Source of the DNA: Clostridia bacterium
GTDB taxonomy: Bacteria; Bacillota_A; Clostridia; Christensenellales; Aristaeellaceae
Assembly (NCBI GenBank): GCA_025997215.1
Contig: BNUH01000122.1
Span: 1 to 6,787, forward strand
Direction of reading: 5' to 3'
Length of the DNA stretch: 6,787 nucleotides
The notes below the pieces were generated by a model. It worked only from the letters and a program-made list of their open reading frames with translations. It searched no databases and was not told where the DNA came from. A program made the translations under genes and the position numbers. Below, piece by piece: positions 1 through 6,771 of the stretch. The stretch's first letter is position 1, and each line of letters opens with the position of its first letter.

Positions 1-65
1 AAGGGGGTATATATGGTGGCTATCACGTAGCGATAGAAGATGTTTTAATAACAAACACGATATGA
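1..65 (+). CDS. C-terminal end of an upstream gene (partial, tentative)
   Basis: Reading from base 3, the frame gives GGIYGGYHVAIEDVLITNTI and a TGA stop at 63-65. The peptide has ordinary protein composition, and the frame closes one base before the GGT-rich array begins, as expected if the array sits between two genes. The family cannot be recognised from 20 residues. It lies on the same strand as the phage-type gene at 699, so it is probably another gene of the same phage module. It could also be a chance open frame, because the start and most of the protein lie outside the window. Confidence 0.4.
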   Translation, partial: GGIYGGYHVAIEDVLITNTI

Positions 66-185
66 GGCAGGTAAGGTTTGTTGGGTTGCGGTACATATGA
101 TCTGGAATGGTCCGATAAGGCAGGGTATGTATGTTGAAATGGCTAATGGTTAGGTTAGGCGACTGCGGTGGGGCGATGTGCATGC

Positions 186-202
186 GGTAAGGCAGGTTTG
201 GT
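186..202 (+). repeat. 17-base direct repeat, copy 1
   Basis: The sequence GGTAAGGCAGGTTTGGT occurs here and again, identical, at 547-563. A shorter version (TAAGGCAGG) occurs at 116-124. Within an otherwise degenerate array, a 17-base exact copy 361 bases away suggests recent duplication or conservation of a particular binding unit. Confidence 0.8.
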
Positions 203-334
203 GAGGTTTGGTGAGTTACTGTTAGTTGTGGCGCGAAAATGAGGTTAGGTGCGGTCGGGCAGGTGTGGTGCGGTAAGGATAGTTGAGTTTCGGTGTAGTT
301 GGGTCGGGTGTGGTGAGTTGAGTTGTTTATTTTA

Positions 335-436
335 ATGTATGTGATGGCAGGCGCAGTAGGTTGTGGTTCGATTAGTTACTTTGGGTTGGATTGGGTATGT
401 CACGGATGTTCCAGTAATGCTCGGCGAGGTACATAA
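335..436 (+). CDS. Possible 33-residue microprotein in the array gap (doubtful)
   Basis: ATG at 335 opens a frame to TAA at 434-436. It encodes a 33-residue peptide with a CxxC pair (C22, C25) and the stretch SISYFGLDWVCHGC. Its span coincides almost exactly with the one long gap in the GGTNN register (326-442), which is why it is listed. Against it, no Shine-Dalgarno sequence precedes the ATG, no family is recognisable, and a 34-codon open frame in G/T-rich DNA is expected by chance. Confidence 0.2.
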   Translation: MYVMAGAVGCGSISYFGLDWVCHGCSSNARRGT

Positions 437-546
437 AGTTACGGCAGGTCTGGTCGAGTGAGTTGGGGTGAGTTGATGTGAGGTCGGTTCCGGCGAGGCG
501 AGTTGAGTTGCGGTTAGGTAATCTAAGCAACGGTATTGTTTGGTGT

Positions 547-563
547 GGTAAGGCAGGTTTGGT
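547..563 (+). repeat. 17-base direct repeat, copy 2
   Basis: This is the exact second copy of the 17-mer at 186-202. It lies at the downstream edge of the array and is followed by a short T-run (568-573). A second exact pair, TTGCGGTTAGGTA, lies at 508-520 and 606-618, and GAGTTGAGTTG is present at 315-325 and 500-510. Confidence 0.8.
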
Positions 564-683
564 AAGCTTTTTTATGGCCAGGTCGATACGGTGGGGTGAA
601 ATGATTTGCGGTTAGGTAGGGTAAATTATGGTGGGGGATGGGTTGAAATAACCAGCCCTGCACCCGGCCGAGCAAACAACATT

Positions 684-698: not shown

Positions 699-1289
699 AT
701 GATGGATACCAGTTATTCATGGCGAGACGGGGCGCGATTCAAAGTGGACGCAGATGTGGCGGCCAAGGAGCTGGATAAGTGCAAGGACGAAAAAGGTATA
801 ATAAACGCAAAGGATGTAGTCAATGTAGCTCGTGAATCGGACAATCCGCTGCACCCGGAATTTGAATGGGATGACGCTTTTGCAGCAGAGGAGCATCGGA
901 AACATACGGCAAGAGTAATGGCAAGCAGTCTTATTGTGACACTTCAGTTGAAACAAATAGAACCTGTTTATATCCATGCCGAGGTTCATGAAACAGAATA
1001 CAAACCACTAGAACCGGTTGAGCAGATTGTGACTCGCGCATTGGTTCATGACGTTTTGTGCGACAATCATGGCTATCGTTGGATTAACCCACTAACTGAC
1101 GATAAAGCAGCATATGCGAGACTGTTGGTAGGCGCAAAACGTGACGCACACTCATACGCACTCAAGTATCGTACAATAAACGAAGTAGCAGACATTATAA
1201 AGGCTATAGATAGCACGATACCAAAAGATGAACTGGTTAGAGTGACAACCAATAAGAAAACAAAAGAGAGCAACATGTCAGATGATTAA
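699..1289 (+). CDS. Phage-type conserved protein of unknown function
   Basis: The gene encodes 196 residues, starting MMDTSYSWRDGARFKVDADVA. The order of conserved stretches matches a protein type I recognise from many clostridial prophages: an N-terminal YxWRDGARFKxDA block, a middle stretch PLHPEFEWDDAFAAEEHRKHTAR (given in two parts: PLHPEFEWDD, then AFAAEEHRKHTAR), and a basic C-terminus. In that type the PLH...FEWDD...AAE..R..QAR core is the signature. No enzyme motif, signal peptide or membrane segment is visible, so it is probably a cytoplasmic accessory protein. It lies on the same strand as the upstream GGT array and is followed at once by a promoter. Its base composition is visibly more GC-rich than the NTPase genes. 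The type and phage origin are from memory of the family; no function is assigned. Confidence 0.85.
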   Translation: MMDTSYSWRDGARFKVDADVAAKELDKCKDEKGIINAKDVVNVARESDNPLHPEFEWDDAFAAEEHRKHTARVMASSLIVTLQLKQIEPVYIHAEVHETEYKPLEPVEQIVTRALVHDVLCDNHGYRWINPLTDDKAAYARLLVGAKRDAHSYALKYRTINEVADIIKAIDSTIPKDELVRVTTNKKTKESNMSDD

Positions 1290-1336: not shown

Positions 1337-1807
1337 TCAAGAAAGGGCGACAATCAATGCAAGAAACGAGTAGACTAGCATCACCAGCCATAAAACGCGA
1401 GGCAAAAGCTGCATTTTCGAAGAATAACACTGAAAGTGTCCATCGAAATGCAGCTGGTTATATACGTGTGTCAACGGAGAAGCTTTTATAACTGCGTTGA
1501 CGAGAGGGTGAAATGTGAAGGATATGTGAGAAATGGAGTTAGGAAGTGTAAAGTGATTATTATGATATAATGATATGAGCTGAGAAAACGAAAAACATCC
1601 GCTAAAAATCAAGCATAAGTAATAAAACGGCAATGATCGGAGACGCAGTACAGCAGGAATGAGTTCACGATATTTAGTTATGATATTATAGTCGCACCTA
1701 GTCTCTATAAGCCGAGTTACTTCACGGATCGTTTCTCCATCATAATCGAATACTCCACCCGCAACTTCTTTAGTCGCAGAAGGCATATTGAAAAGTTCGT
1801 TAGCCAT
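1337..1807 (-). CDS. Small unknown protein downstream of the KAP gene, likely chimeric end
   Basis: ATG at 1807 is preceded by GAGG (1817-1814) at a 6-base spacing, which favours this start over one further upstream at 1840. The frame encodes 156 residues. Residues 1 to about 60 (MANELFNMPSATKEVAG, then DYDGETIREVTRLIETRCDY) look like a real, soluble, acidic-to-mixed N-terminus. The remainder is rich in Ser, His, Phe and Leu, and its last 45 or so residues are simply the antisense of the recombinase fragment. It probably runs past a junction into unrelated DNA. I do not recognise the family. It starts 106 bases after the stop of the KAP gene on the same strand, so it may be the truncated third gene of that operon. 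The true protein end cannot be fixed from this window. Confidence 0.45.
   Translation of the reverse strand: MANELFNMPSATKEVAGGVFDYDGETIREVTRLIETRCDYNIITKYRELIPAVLRLRSLPFYYLCLIFSGCFSFSQLISLYHNNHFTLPNSISHISFTFHPLVNAVIKASPLTHVYNQLHFDGHFQCYSSKMQLLPRVLWLVMLVYSFLALIVALS
1357..1491 (+). pseudogene. N-terminal remnant of a large serine recombinase
   Basis: The frame from ATG 1357 encodes 44 residues and ends at TAA 1489-1491. After a basic leader (SPAIKREAKAAF) comes AAGYIRVSTEK at residues 32-42. This is the opening beta-strand motif (Y-x-R-V-S-T) of the resolvase/invertase catalytic domain, with Ser39 at the position of the nucleophilic serine. Large serine recombinases of clostridial prophages have a similar basic leader before this motif and then continue for several hundred residues. 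Here the frame stops two codons after the motif, and no continuation is seen in the other frames. It has its own promoter (1301-1328) and ribosome-binding site (1342-1347), so the 5' end looks intact and the rest has been lost at about 1480. The alternative is that a 44-residue ORF matches by chance. The motif is short, but its context and order fit well. Confidence 0.6.
1407..1455. repeat. Two-tier inverted repeat (cruciform/hairpin)
   Basis: The outer arms AGCTGCATTTTCGA (1407-1420) and TCGAAATGCAGCT (1443-1455) are complementary apart from one extra T. Between them a second, inner hairpin ACACT-GAA-AGTGT (1427-1439) is centred. Read on the - strand, the structure is followed by TTTT (1407-1404), so it could act as a weak Rho-independent terminator for transcripts coming down from the NTPase genes. 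Read on the + strand there is no T-run. It lies within the codons of the recombinase remnant, so a recombination site or regulatory site is also possible. Confidence 0.75.
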
Positions 1808-1913: not shown

Positions 1914-3590
1914 TCATTTATTGCCATAATATTCATTTTTCAAAATGGATATCTCTTCCTGTATTATTTGTTCGGTTGTTCTGGTGTCATTATTGTCCTT
2001 GGTCGATAAATATTTTATGAAATACATTTCACTATCTCCGGTAGTGCTGTCGAAGGTTCCAACTTTTTTAAATGTGTAAACGAATTGGTTTAGAACGTAA
2101 ATATAGAAATTACTGGTATATGACTCAGGTTGCAAGTAGCACCATATTGGCATAAATTGTGAAATGATCTTTGTAATCACACGAAAATTCCTAATGTCCT
2201 CTGTAATTTCATTAAACGATGCTTCGGTTAAAAATTCTATATACCGGCCACTGATTGAGTCGTGTTGTATAAATAAGGCAACTACTAAGATTATAACTGT
2301 GTAAACCATCCCGATGCAAGCCGTCAAACTGGCTTTAACCATTAATATGGCAAACAGTGCAGTTATAATCATTTCTGCCACTATAACAACTTTAATAGTC
2401 CTGACTATTGGCTGTGACATATTCTCAATACTATGTCCATATTCAACATCTATTAGCCATCCGGCTAAAACAAATGAAACTATTGAGGATACAACTCCTA
2501 CTATAGCTATTGCATAGAATAACATCCGTGAATCGGTTATTCTTCTGGCATATAATATACTTATGCAGCTACTTAGGCCAATCAAGATAATGCCTATCCA
2601 CGAAACAAGATAAAATAACAGATTGTATATAGAATTTCCTCGTGATATCTTATGCAGTAAACCTATAATACCATATATTAGTAATAATATCTCAAATATC
2701 CGCATTGCTATAAATTCAGGATTAATCGAGAGATAGACTATTGATAAAATGCTTATGACAATGCAAATTACTGAGCTAAGTCCTGTTGATTTTACTATTG
2801 CTCTTCCAGCTTTGCTATTTATTCGTCTTATTTTTATTGCATCCTCAACCATAGCAGATATTGTTTTCTTTGTATTGCATATATAAGCAAAGGTCTTATA
2901 TACAATTTTTTCCTTATACTTTAGATACTCTTCTCTATCACTAGTAATCTCATCCTCATTCGTTACTATTATTACTTTGATACCCATTTCCAAATAGTCG
3001 TTTATCAGACCCATCGCAGTCTTTAGGTCAAGTGATGTTCGCTCAAAATCATCAAATACTAAGATGACTTTTTTGAACATGCGCGTAGGCTTTGGTTTTA
3101 ATAATAAATAGCGTGTATAAAAACACACTATCATTAACGAGAGTAAAGCACCAATTATTTTACCTAGATTCCCAGCAGCTGCTGGTGTGCTAATAAATTG
3201 TAAAAATCTGTAAGGTTGCAAACTGGCTTCGTAAATTATGTAAAGAGTTTGAAATACTGGGTCTAACAAGCTAATTAGTATCGTTATTAAGGCTGTCATA
3301 CTCAAAGCAGCGCTAATTGAGAAAAATTTACTTGTGAGAGGGGAATACACATCTTTTACTTTGCTAATTAGCTGCTCTGGCTTATCAATGCCGAACAACG
3401 AAACAATGTATATGTACGCGCTCCAGCGTAATTCTTTCCTAAGTACTCGTTCTATATAGAAAGTCTTACCAGTTCCCCAAGCTCCTGTTAGCATGATAGC
3501 ACCGACGCGAATATCTGATTGTATATAGCTAATAATTCCGTCTGTCGTTTCATCATGCTGTTTATACTTATTATGGTTCAATATACGCAT
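1914..3590 (-). CDS. KAP-family P-loop NTPase, multi-pass membrane protein
   Basis: The gene encodes 558 residues. Walker A is GAWGTGKT at 36-43; Walker B is VILVFDDFER at 175-184; a sensor-like strand IIVTNEDE is at 207-214; and YKEKIVYKTF at 225-234 fits the post-sensor block of KAP proteins. Two hydrophobic helices (about 92-109 and 142-164) sit between Walker A and Walker B. That insertion is the hallmark of the KAP group, named for Kidins220/ARMS and the F-plasmid T7-exclusion protein PifA. About six more membrane segments follow (272-289, 297-312, 324-347, 357-380, 400-418, 421-441), then a soluble C-terminal region of about 115 residues. The NTPase head should be cytoplasmic. The start has GAGGTG (3606-3601) 10 bases upstream. 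Membrane-linked phage defence is inferred from family and neighbours; the trigger and output are unknown. The many C-terminal helices make it unlike soluble KAP members. Confidence 0.9.
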   Translation of the reverse strand: MRILNHNKYKQHDETTDGIISYIQSDIRVGAIMLTGAWGTGKTFYIERVLRKELRWSAYIYIVSLFGIDKPEQLISKVKDVYSPLTSKFFSISAALSMTALITILISLLDPVFQTLYIIYEASLQPYRFLQFISTPAAAGNLGKIIGALLSLMIVCFYTRYLLLKPKPTRMFKKVILVFDDFERTSLDLKTAMGLINDYLEMGIKVIIVTNEDEITSDREEYLKYKEKIVYKTFAYICNTKKTISAMVEDAIKIRRINSKAGRAIVKSTGLSSVICIVISILSIVYLSINPEFIAMRIFEILLLIYGIIGLLHKISRGNSIYNLLFYLVSWIGIILIGLSSCISILYARRITDSRMLFYAIAIVGVVSSIVSFVLAGWLIDVEYGHSIENMSQPIVRTIKVVIVAEMIITALFAILMVKASLTACIGMVYTVIILVVALFIQHDSISGRYIEFLTEASFNEITEDIRNFRVITKIISQFMPIWCYLQPESYTSNFYIYVLNQFVYTFKKVGTFDSTTGDSEMYFIKYLSTKDNNDTRTTEQIIQEEISILKNEYYGNK

Positions 3591-3725
3591 AATGTTTTTT
3601 CACCTCAACATACTTTAGGAGTAATGATAAAACATGAATATGAAACCTACTTCTATGTTTAAGCTCTTCGTAAGCGCAAACCTCCCTGTTCCCACCCACA
3701 GTGATAAATGAGCCGATGAGTTTTT

Positions 3726-3875
3726 GACAGCAAGAAAAAGTCGGTGAAAATATTACGCTATCGCTTCTATCTGAAACCTTCTCTGGTTGAAGCCGCTCAC
3801 AGCGCGAGAAAATCGATTAAGTCACCTCATTACAAAGTGATATAAGAACGGGTCTCCAGACGCAGAGATAACTTC
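3726..3875 (+). pseudogene. IS110-family transposase C-terminal remnant
   Basis: In the frame from 3726 the translation reads KKKSVKILRYRFYLKPSLVE, then AAHSARKSIKSPHYKVI, a TAA stop (3843-3845), then ERVSRRRDN. This follows the C-terminal (Transposase_20 end) block of IS110-type transposases, KKKSV-I...YLKP-LV--A--A-KS---PYY---YER--KRRG. The in-frame stop falls exactly where a Tyr codon (TAT or TAC) is expected. The frame also has a stop just upstream (3717-3719), and similarity fades after about 3875, so only about 50 codons remain and the element is dead. It lies on the opposite strand to the two NTPase genes it separates. No intact ends of the element are visible. The family call rests on a remembered motif, not on a search. 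Confidence 0.6.
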
Positions 3876-3879
3876 CTGA

Positions 3880-4037
3880 TCAAACACGGGATTGTTTTAC
3901 TTGAGTACGTTCGGCTTCCAGCAGCCTGGCCACACCACTTTCAAAAAACTCCCCTACTGAGGATTTGTTTGCTATACCTTTCTCTGTTTTCCGGAGACCA
4001 CAATCCTTCGAACATTGTTATCATGCAAATATTCCAT
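3880..4037 (-). pseudogene. Unidentified broken coding frame between the NTPase genes
   Basis: On the - strand, ATG at 4037 opens MEYLHDNNVRRIVVSGKQRK and stops at TAG (3974-3972). One frame over, translation continues as ANKSSVGEFFESGVARLLEA, then ERTQVKQSRV, and stops at TGA (3882-3880). Both halves look protein-like, meet at about 3975-3980 and use more GC-rich codons than the flanking NTPase genes. A single frameshift near the GAGAAAGG run (about 3977-3984) would join them into a peptide of about 52 residues. The family is not recognised. It could be another transposon scrap, since the IS110 remnant starts right beside it, or two chance frames. Confidence 0.3.
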
Positions 4038-4110
4038 ATTGCGTTCCGTTTATTATGCAATAATATCGATTATCTTTTTTTAATTTCAATATCATACCAT
4101 ACAGAGCGTT

Positions 4111-6771
4111 TTACTCTTCCATGTAATTAGCAGCATAATAATCAAGTTTAGCTTTTGCTTGCTCATTTATCCATAAGCCGCACCAATCATCGAATAGTGT
4201 GATACCATTATCAATTATGCATTGTACAATATCATCTTTTTTATATTTTCCATTTGATAGCATTTTCGCTATTTTTGCGCGGCTAACGCTTTTCATATTT
4301 TCTAATTCCTTTAGGCTCAACATTGGCTCTATTTTGACCTCCGTTTTGTGCTTTTCAACCTTTTCTTTGTGCCTATTATACATTACAAGACAAATGCACA
4401 ATATAATAAATCCTATAAAAATGTATAATAATATATTGACGACAATGATGCTCCTAGGTATTATTAATGCAAGGGCTGCTATCACTGTATTGCTAATGAT
4501 CAATTCGACTATATTCTCTCTTATAGAAGATGTCTCTTTGCTTCTATATATATATACATCACGAAACATTTCATATATCGTTACTAAAATAGCCGTGAAA
4601 AGAATCGCAAGGAATGCTATTATACATATCATCCCTGTATGATATGAAATAGAAACCCATAATGTGCTAATTGGGTTCTTTTCTAATACATCCATAATAT
4701 TCATCATTTCAAAACGGACAATACCGAAAACAACTAATGCACCAATTATAACTGCCAAAGAAGTCATTATGATTATTTGCTTTCTTTTCATTTCAAAACT
4801 GGGAATTATTAGTCTATAATAAGACCGATTCTTCTTGTCAAACAGCTTTCCGGACATTATATCGTATACTGTGCGGTCGCTATCAGTTCGTGCTTTGTAT
4901 AGTCTATCAACCCCAATACCTAACGAAGATTGAAGAACATATGTCATTACATTAGAATTAATGTTAAACAGACCCTTTTGTATCATTCTCTGCTTGTTCT
5001 CAGGTAAATAATAGCCTATTCCCTGGGCAAAAGTATTAAGCGTGTTGAGATCGTGTCTCTTGTACCAATCACTATCTCGAAGATATGATAGAACCAAATC
5101 TGTTATCTTACTGGATACATTATTAGTAATTTCCTTATTATGCGCGTTATGTATAAAGAGGAACCTCAATGCTTTAAGAGCCCTATCTGTCTCGTGTTTC
5201 CACGAACACGAAAAATCCACACCCGGCCCACTAATCGTTTTATAACAAAAATCGGAGATGTTCTGTGCTTCATTCGCAGGTGCTATTTCATAGTAAAAGC
5301 CAACGATATCTTGATTGCCATTCTTTATAAACATTTGTTGGATATATTCATCTCTTAGCTGAGATTTATGCTTTATTTCCTGTAAAATAAAGTAATCCCT
5401 TATCTTATTATGAGCAAACGATAATACCCCATTCCTTACTCTAACTATTTTCGAGCTTATAAGTAATCTAAGAAGCGTCTCATCATATTGCCCTTGTAAA
5501 GCAAAATAAGAAGGATCATTTTCTTGCATGTTCAATGCTATCTCTGTTGCTATCATAATTATCGACTTCATAATATCAATAATTCCTATAGCTTCGCCGT
5601 TCTCACATTCACGATAGATAGCAATATTCAGGTTATTCCCAACATAGTATTCATATAATGATTCGAGGTTTTCAGGTAAACATCCAGAGTCTTGATAAAA
5701 CATGCTCAATATCATTACATTTAAAGGGATCTTACATAATTCTAAAATGTCTAGGCGCTTGCTAAAGATAGATATAACAATGTCATCACTGAATTTATAG
5801 TGCTTAGTCAATACACGGTGTATTGATGGTTCATCAAGACATTTGATTTTTATTTGTATATTCACAACAAACGAGTATTTTGATCTCGAAGCAATAATAC
5901 CACCGCCTGTTTCTTCCAAAAACCGAACTATCTGTTTTTGAATATCAATCCGCATTGAATTTGAGATATTACTGTTTAAAAATGGCATTTCATCAAATGC
6001 ATCAATTAGGAAATAGAAATTTTTGGAGCATAGCAAGATATCATAGTATTTATTTATAAAACTAGCAGCTGCACCAAAATAACGCTGAACTACTTCGTGC
6101 TTAATGGCATCAGCAATTTCATTGCCACCAGGTTTCTCACTTATATATGAACTATTCAATACTATATCTCTCATATTTATATATATCGGTATGCATTTGA
6201 ATCTATTAGTTTTCATCAAGAGAGTTCTGCAGAACTCTATCATTGTTGTACTCTTTCCTGAACCAGATTCTCCAAGTAGAAGCGATGTAGTTTTATTCTT
6301 TGTAACACAATATCTCATTAGGGCAAGAGAATCATGAACACTTTTCTTCTTCTTTTCACCTACATATAGATCCGCATTGATTGGATAATACGATTTCAAA
6401 CTATTGGGCAGATTCTGATATATGTCGTTGAGCATACGTAATGTTTGATTGATAAAATCATCAAAATATTCATCAGAAATGCTGTCCTTCAAGTTTCTAT
6501 TCTGCTTATGTTGCAACGAGAATTTTTTTGCGAATTTCACATTTGCTAATATAATTACAGTTATTTGGCTGATTAGTAATATAAAAACGCTCGTAGTTAA
6601 CTTGAGATCCAGATAAATTTCGGACGAAATATATTTTTGTATGATATGGTTCGAATAGTGATTAATAGCAGGAAATGGAGGAAACATACCAAATCCATCA
6701 GCTGTTAAGAAAGTGGCCAGTGAAATTATAAACGGAATTGGTTTCTGAGTGTTTTTTAGCCTACTATTCAT
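4111..6771 (-). CDS. NACHT-domain (STAND) NTPase with membrane segments at both ends
   Basis: The gene encodes 886 residues from ATG 6771. Two hydrophobic segments open it (about 12-30 and 58-77). The NACHT core follows: Walker A GESGSGKST (167-175), IPIYINMRD (195-202), Walker B FLIDAFDEM (254-262) with the acidic pair typical of NACHT, sensor GGIIASRSKY (290-299), KIPLNVMIL (347-355), and a winged-helix-type end LSFAHNKIRDYFILQEI (450-466). A helical middle (about 470-650) leads to about four or five membrane segments (665-687, 705-731, 752-771, 774-798) and a 70-residue soluble tail (817-886). NACHT proteins are signal-sensing NTPases, and bacterial ones are known in phage defence; a membrane-disrupting output is inference. 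The frame stays open to the window edge and no Shine-Dalgarno is visible in the 16 bases upstream, so the true start may lie further out. Confidence 0.9.
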   Translation of the reverse strand: MNSRLKNTQKPIPFIISLATFLTADGFGMFPPFPAINHYSNHIIQKYISSEIYLDLKLTTSVFILLISQITVIILANVKFAKKFSLQHKQNRNLKDSISDEYFDDFINQTLRMLNDIYQNLPNSLKSYYPINADLYVGEKKKKSVHDSLALMRYCVTKNKTTSLLLGESGSGKSTTMIEFCRTLLMKTNRFKCIPIYINMRDIVLNSSYISEKPGGNEIADAIKHEVVQRYFGAAASFINKYYDILLCSKNFYFLIDAFDEMPFLNSNISNSMRIDIQKQIVRFLEETGGGIIASRSKYSFVVNIQIKIKCLDEPSIHRVLTKHYKFSDDIVISIFSKRLDILELCKIPLNVMILSMFYQDSGCLPENLESLYEYYVGNNLNIAIYRECENGEAIGIIDIMKSIIMIATEIALNMQENDPSYFALQGQYDETLLRLLISSKIVRVRNGVLSFAHNKIRDYFILQEIKHKSQLRDEYIQQMFIKNGNQDIVGFYYEIAPANEAQNISDFCYKTISGPGVDFSCSWKHETDRALKALRFLFIHNAHNKEITNNVSSKITDLVLSYLRDSDWYKRHDLNTLNTFAQGIGYYLPENKQRMIQKGLFNINSNVMTYVLQSSLGIGVDRLYKARTDSDRTVYDIMSGKLFDKKNRSYYRLIIPSFEMKRKQIIIMTSLAVIIGALVVFGIVRFEMMNIMDVLEKNPISTLWVSISYHTGMICIIAFLAILFTAILVTIYEMFRDVYIYRSKETSSIRENIVELIISNTVIAALALIIPRSIIVVNILLYIFIGFIILCICLVMYNRHKEKVEKHKTEVKIEPMLSLKELENMKSVSRAKIAKMLSNGKYKKDDIVQCIIDNGITLFDDWCGLWINEQAKAKLDYYAANYMEE

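Follow-up and report, generated by a model that had tools for sequence, protein, structure and literature searches.

KAP P-loop NTPases form a broad family, which includes the scaffold protein Kidins220 in eukaryotes and the P-loop protein PifA of plasmid F, involved in phage exclusion; RdrA of RADAR, for its part, pairs with the RdrB deaminase. KAP NTPases are also said, in the title of a 2004 publication by Aravind, to carry inserted membrane segments within the NTPase domain. PMC11846954 describes Tmn as a KAP-family transmembrane NTPase defence protein with two membrane segments, and calls its mechanism unexplored. As for bacterial NACHT proteins, nuclease-NCH1 and SNaCT types are among the clades described in PMC12169576.

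The window, by which we mean the whole analysed stretch of 6,787 nucleotides, contains one gene for a protein of each kind (Table 1). An initial annotation had proposed two co-directional genes whose products are membrane P-loop NTPases of families that include defence proteins. This description is borne out: the two long same-strand ORFs are found with exactly these boundaries, both products contain Walker A and B motifs together with hydrophobic segments detected by a simple hydropathy scan, and both give KAP- or NACHT-like matches. We consider that they are probably two independent single-gene, putative defence membrane NTPases lying in mobile-DNA scrap with a phage gene and an IS110 relic.

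Table 1. Positions of the features in the window.
Feature	Position	Strand	Basis or remark
GGNNN (GGYNN) pentamer array	1..650	+	Same strand as the phage gene's coding strand; outside the NTPase gene pair
Intact phage gene, 196 aa, phrog_15946 (function not assigned)	699..1289	+	PHROGs match; outside the NTPase gene pair
KAP-family P-loop NTPase, 558 aa	1914..3590	-	Pfam PF07693, Walker motifs
Inter-gene interval, 520 bp	3591..4110		Consensus matches only for signals
IS110-family transposase relic, C-terminal part	3729..3866	+	One in-frame stop; opposite both genes
Membrane NACHT/STAND-like protein, 886 aa	4111..6771	-	Frame open at contig edge, possibly 5'-truncated

The KAP protein matches PF07693 with an E-value of 3.4e-5 and 23.7 bits, above the curated cut-off of 20. 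Two hydropathy peaks (residues 91-109 and 145-163) lie between its Walker A (GAWGTGKT, 36-43) and its Walker B (VILVFDDFER, 175-184), so that the reported family feature of membrane segments inside the NTPase domain is found in this protein as well; the structure model places helices at 71-123 and 136-164, with low confidence there. Six more hydrophobic segments follow at 271-441, behind the NTPase core. Likeness to relatives is essentially confined to residues 15-260: alignments to database relatives take in 11-45% of the query, and no KAP relative was found beyond the NTPase domain. Among 151 KAP relatives, duplicates included, six have a hydrophobic segment and a single one has two or more, which precede its KAP domain, while the inserted hairpin and the C-terminal segment set occur together in none of them. 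Five weak protein matches (25-30% identity) were obtained against plasmids and none against phages; in the viral structure library, the best entry for the KAP model bears the name KAP family and has an E-value of 1.1e-3, and none reaches 0.001.

Compared with known proteins, the NTPase domain resembles most closely the PADLOC candidate PDC-S49 and the phage family phrog_4740 (E 1e-31 to 1e-30), although the PDC-S49 profile, of about 620 positions, is matched in two stretches rather than whole, the best at residues 173-253, and the window protein differs from these relatives by its inserted hairpin and C-terminal set. The PADLOC PifA model gives no match to it at E≤1, whereas PifA of plasmid F itself scores 963 bits; PifA also has no hydrophobic segment in the same hydropathy scan, and its profile comparison with A2 is weak (probability 55% over 67 columns). 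Unlike in RADAR, no RdrB deaminase is seen in the window. Finally, the protein may resemble Tmn, the nearest KAP precedent, as a KAP NTPase with two (here inserted) membrane segments, but it is set apart from the published description of Tmn by its six further C-terminal hydrophobic segments.

The second gene is predicted, from its motifs and its structure model, to encode a divergent membrane NACHT/STAND protein. It carries a Walker A (GESGSGKS, 167-174) and a Walker B (FLIDAFDEMP), and hydrophobic segments at 58-76, 666-684, 714-732, 754-772 and 775-793, with a further peak at 395-413. Its PF05729 (NACHT) match, at E 0.0064 and 16.8 bits, stays below the curated cut-off of 26.7, which is exceeded by the only relative found, P0002 (28.8 bits), from a 35.8-kb contig. 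With Foldseek, NLRs and Avs4 make up all nine PDB hits that reach E≤0.001, the model itself being poor (mean pLDDT 45). The protein may have a NACHT/STAND core in common with bNACHT and Avs4, as the top structural matches suggest, but has hydrophobic segments on both sides of this core, a layout to be set beside the nuclease-NCH1 and SNaCT types of PMC12169576. The gene may be incomplete, since its reading frame is still open where the contig ends, no Shine-Dalgarno sequence is visible ahead of its ATG, and P0002 is longer by about 50 residues at the N-terminus, with two extra hydrophobic segments. P0002 also contains an NCH3 domain (PF22729, E 1.1e-14), which is not detected in the window protein at E≤1; a search for this domain in 391 Clostridia genomes gave nothing and is uninformative, as the control genomes gave no match either. 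No protein matches to the window NACHT were found in plasmids and phages, and P0002 gives partial NACHT-region matches in 27 plasmid records, mostly cyanobacterial. Genome contigs searched with the NACHT alignment yielded no confirmed relatives, and neither did a search, run with no positive control, of 40 genomes from among those with the 80 KAP loci considered below.

Between the two genes, the initial annotation had placed 520 bases of debris; debris is indeed present, and its identified part is a piece of an IS110 transposase rather than phage DNA. This piece is 64% identical to a Roseburia IS110 transposase over 36 aa (E 5e-6), the other records listed being at E of about 3 or more, and, in a comparison against the window alone, 57% identical to an IS110 transposase over 46 aa (residues 308-353 of 424, E 6e-10). 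Its identity rests on these protein comparisons and not on Pfam and PHROGs, which gave no IS110 match on the broken pieces but weak matches (E 0.09-0.18) that include one to a DNA invertase family; a recombinase-like scrap is also present in the locus. As consensus matches, the interval shows an RBS-like GAGGTG of the KAP gene's own, ending 10 bases before the ATG, and a weak terminator-like hairpin at 3963-3950 on the minus strand, and six promoter-like sequences were found on that strand between 3400 and 4400.

A pairing in which a NACHT sensor drives a KAP membrane protein was put forward in the initial annotation; we regard such a two-gene system, with infection sensed by the NACHT protein and the IS110 relic as a late insertion, as quite unlikely. 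In its favour, the genes are on the same strand with the NACHT gene first, their GC contents are alike (0.339 and 0.329), and their codon usage is correlated (0.84, where the correlations to the phage ORF are 0.79 and 0.69); these features suit joint acquisition, although host-wide bias would have the same effect, and the IS110 piece may have entered a once compact operon. Conservation argues in the opposite direction. In the loci of the best 80 of 258 KAP relatives, with a mean flank of 14.4 kb in all, no ORF resembles the window NACHT or P0002, and a NACHT neighbour of any kind is found in one locus, as judged with a generic model trained on Clostridia that could miss other NACHTs; its matches to many of the KAP ORFs themselves were left out of the count. 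Reciprocally, none of 20 Clostridia NACHT neighbourhoods, taken from at least 26 places above the cut-off, contains a KAP gene. In the one positive locus, from Sedimentibacter, the KAP gene is followed about 0.5 kb downstream, on the same strand, by a gene for a metallophosphoesterase-NACHT protein; this protein resembles the DS-8 architecture described in PMC13092281, and since it carries its own metallophosphoesterase domain, it need not use the KAP protein. Four other neighbour matches were not counted as NACHT: P-loop fragments to which a family search gave no identity (L035 and L048), an ABC transporter (L055) and, in a second KAP set, an AAA protein (L148). At the level of distant families, homologues of the two genes are thus almost never neighbours, the outcome that the initial annotation had named as refuting, and its caution that the genes may be separate island tenants becomes the better reading; with so few close homologues, there is still room for a rare pairing. 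Besides, the KAP gene has its own RBS-like sequence after a 520-bp gap. No title among the literature matches listed dealt with a NACHT-KAP pairing (subscription papers being mostly outside the scope). Neither alignment matched PDB sequences at E≤0.1, and no relative of either gene was confirmed in viral contigs. A phage-borne relay, in which a membrane NACHT sensor would activate an eight-segment KAP channel and the IS110 piece would be a late intruder, is very unlikely; the scarcity of the pairing would then reflect that of the NACHT lineage, in which one other member was found.

Decay offers another explanation, namely that one or both genes are incomplete, non-functional remnants, the NACHT gene being 5'-truncated and the KAP C-terminus an odd replacement. 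The open NACHT frame and longer P0002 N-terminus, the IS relic and recombinase-like scrap, and the restriction of KAP likeness to the NTPase region speak for it, but each gene is a long ORF without interruption whose Walker A and B motifs are intact, and we hold it to be unlikely. The KAP protein could also be a membrane scaffold or transport-linked NTPase of a mobile element, in keeping with the breadth of a family that includes the Kidins220 scaffold; as the profiles that it matches best belong to a PADLOC defence candidate and to a family of phage proteins, this non-defence role appears quite improbable.

For two independent NTPases, which we favour, we infer defence, oligomerisation and membrane damage for either protein. 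The NACHT protein would be a STAND switch held in the ADP state, whose helical middle and C-terminal part might detect phage, leading to nucleotide exchange and oligomerisation; the oligomer would bring together the membrane segments on either side of the switch, forming a pore or an assembly that disrupts the membrane, and the infected cell would be killed or arrested. By analogy with Tmn, the KAP protein may act alone, ATP-driven ring formation by its core moving the inserted hairpin and the six-segment domain behind it, so that the membrane would be depolarised or phage DNA entry blocked. Each gene is a variant of a known group, new in that the NACHT is membrane-flanked and that the KAP protein combines an inserted hairpin with a six-segment domain, and if either protects, the corresponding architecture would be added to its group. 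The negative result on pairing illustrates that two adjoining defence-like NTPases in an island are not evidence of a system.

As for the surroundings, the genes had been said to adjoin prophage debris; a phage sign is present, but it is the intact phrog_15946 gene. Megablast of the window DNA against phage and plasmid records gave no matches, and tRNA and Rfam scans of the window found none. Next to the phage gene, and on the strand of that gene, lies a GGYNN pentamer array. Among 80 viral homologues of this gene, selected purely by protein homology, 49 have this array alongside (on the other strand, 0 of 80), as does the gene in all five named phages found with it; UmaThurman gp41 is one phrog_15946 protein. 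The link between array and phage gene is better supported than the NACHT-KAP pairing, and this strand-specific array tied to a phage family may be the most testable point of the window.

In bases 1-650 of the window (plus strand), GG dinucleotides recur every 5 nt directly ahead of a phage gene assigned to phrog_15946 (699-1289, plus strand), with 34 GG pairs at distance 5 within bases 1-640, compared to 13.7 (sd 3.8) in 200 single-base shuffles. Scans of viral contigs yielded at least 120 stretches with the GGTNN pattern and 27 with a 17-base exact pattern, 26 of the latter being new. Among the 146 loci examined, all selected by the array itself, the array was present in 54 and a relative of the phage gene in 14, all of them within these 54; in each of the 14, the array is on the strand of the gene and either overlaps it or lies at most 250 bp away. 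Since these loci had been selected by the array, a second set of viral loci was picked by protein homology alone (L319-L398, the best 80 of 278), the array being called at a score of at least 18 in 400 nt. Of these 80 loci, 49 carried it within about 600 bp on the strand of the gene and none on the opposite strand; more than 1.5 kb away, it occurred in 0 of 5142 gene-strand windows and in no window of the other strand. It was likewise found in 0 of 77,536 windows from loci longer than 3000 bases of the cellular genomes and plasmid F (L001-L171). Clustering of the homology-picked loci at 80% nucleotide identity left 62 clusters, of which 34 reached a score of 18 and 51 a score of 10; on the opposite strand, none of the 62 reached 10. 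When pooled over the 49 arrays, GG-GG distances show maxima at 5, 10, 15, 20, and 25, and the unit reads GGYNN, its third base being mostly C or T. However, 31 of the 80 homology-picked loci fall short of the strict threshold, and 14 score below 10.

The phage gene was also matched in five named phages, namely the cyanophage Cy-LDV1 and the Gordonia phages UmaThurman, Ecliptus, ODay, and Pipp, and all eight members scanned belong to phrog_15946. Within the 8-12 kb examined of each phage, the highest-scoring array window is always on the gene strand and overlaps or adjoins the 5' end of the gene. The gene lies a few genes ahead of the bet recombinase, exonuclease, and SSB in Cy-LDV1, a few kilobases from the integrase in UmaThurman and Pipp, and among tail genes in Ecliptus and ODay; given these differing surroundings, its neighbourhood does not settle its role. 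TRAP-type ring proteins bind regularly spaced triplets in RNA, and ssDNA annealing proteins form rings. The strand bias and the 5-nt period of the array are reminiscent of either kind of ring, and the phrog_15946 protein might form a ring that binds RNA or ssDNA, with the array as its target. No title among the literature matches listed for phrog_15946 was on this family, so that novelty is unproven. In UmaThurman (L400), the array window at 3551-3950 covers gene 40, annotated as hypothetical (3623-3946); this annotation may be spurious, an artefact of gene calling within the array.

The window appears to be the whole 6787-bp contig. Its NACHT and KAP ORFs are both AT-rich (GC 0.329 and 0.339, respectively), in contrast with the phage-like ORF at 606-1289 (GC 0.449), whose likelier start is the ATG at 699, preceded by AAGGAG. 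The 44-aa piece downstream of it, preceded by a promoter-like match (11/12, 1301-1328), looks like the beginning of a serine recombinase (PHROG DNA invertase, E 0.089), and a search of it against phages gave no match; this likeness is weak evidence for a truncated integrase.

Features of the putative defence-gene region and of the piece following the phage gene
Feature	Coordinates	Strand	Description
NACHT ORF	6771-4111	-	Uninterrupted, 886 aa; first in transcription order
KAP ORF	3590-1914	-	Uninterrupted, 558 aa; second in transcription order
44-aa open piece	1357-1488	+	Ends AGYIRVSTEKLL, then stop
Terminator-like hairpin	3963-3950	-	Five pairs; between the NACHT and KAP genes

Between the NACHT and KAP genes, 3729-3866 (plus strand) is an insertion-sequence relic on the strand opposite to both: it aligns, with 57% identity in 46 aa and a single in-frame stop, to a Roseburia IS110 transposase of 424 aa (residues 308-353), and its 41-aa open piece alone retrieves the same transposase (E 5e-6, 72,556 plasmid records). 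The KAP gene is preceded by a GAGGTG of its own, which ends 10 bases upstream of the ATG. Within 3400-4400, 10 promoter-like matches were counted over both strands, 6 of them on the minus strand, for 3.5 (sd 1.8) expected in all, together with three terminator-like hairpins versus 0.5 expected. Judged from sequence, these matches would suit separate transcription of the two genes, of which they are no proof.

The NACHT protein reaches 16.8 bits to the Pfam NACHT model, under the cut-off of 26.7. A search of 5.8 billion proteins, with scoring limited to the 7998 candidates sharing most words, found a single relative, P0002 (1013 aa; BLAST 27% identity over 47%), and a repeat search with the alignment of the two gave no further one. 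P0002 is above the cut-off (28.8 bits) and carries an NCH3 domain (E 1.1e-14), for which Pfam gave no match in the window protein at E<=1. With a custom model of 19 Clostridia NACHT domains excluding both proteins, and E-values referring to a three-sequence set, the window NACHT scored 26.1 bits and P0002 32.5 bits, the KAP protein being unlisted. The AlphaFold model of the window NACHT, built on an alignment of two rows, is poor (pLDDT 45); all nine of its PDB matches at E<=0.001 are NLRP9, Avs4, NLRP7, NLRP3, or NLRC4. On the basis of the relative, the custom-model scores, and these structural matches, we call it a divergent NACHT/STAND protein, though under the Pfam cut-off. Hydropathy places one segment ahead of its core and four behind, with an extra peak at 395-413 within the helical middle, and four ahead and five behind in P0002. 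Besides, its gene may be truncated, since the frame is open up to the contig edge, no Shine-Dalgarno is visible in the 16 bases upstream of the ATG at 6771, and the N-terminus of P0002 is about 50 residues longer, with two segments there.

The initial annotation had proposed a NACHT sensor and a KAP membrane protein as one two-gene defence system. In the best 80 of 258 KAP-relative genome loci (mean flank 14.4 kb), no ORF like the window NACHT or P0002 was found at E<=0.1, and a generic NACHT model retrieved one real NACHT neighbour, in Sedimentibacter saalensis (L026), besides hitting many of the KAP ORFs themselves. Ten more KAP loci, at least two of them repeating loci of the first set, gave no NACHT neighbour; the sole extra hit was an AAA protein and was rejected. 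Conversely, none of 20 Clostridia NACHT neighbourhoods (10-20 kb each, from at least 26 over-cut-off places in 391 genomes) contained a KAP. A search with the two-sequence NACHT alignment through the genomes that contain 40 of the first 80 KAP loci gave no match, a result that is uninformative in a run without positive control. Counted from both directions, homologues are thus rarely adjacent, which speaks against the proposed pairing at the level of distant families only.

The switch domains, the hydrophobic segments, the gene order, and the relic are shown here. From knowledge of the families, each protein would be a self-contained switch, in which infection would trigger nucleotide cycling and oligomerisation coupled to the membrane. 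According to Kaur et al. (PMC8195603), a STAND NTPase is displaceable by a KAP in certain counter-invader systems, which would suit two interchangeable switches better than a sensor coupled to its effector. Among named systems, Tmn appears to come closest as a precedent for a KAP-family membrane protein in defence, judged by its published description (PMC11846954).

In L026 (10022-16869), the KAP NTPase is followed about 0.5 kb downstream, on the same strand, by a metallophosphoesterase-NACHT protein, which is likewise under the Pfam NACHT cut-off (20.5 bits) and whose architecture resembles that of DS-8 as described in PMC13092281. Finally, in another KAP locus (L069, 9017-11851), a stretch of about 330 residues that includes five hydrophobic segments precedes the KAP NTPase in the same open frame, which would be a different way to tether a PDC-S49-type KAP to the membrane.
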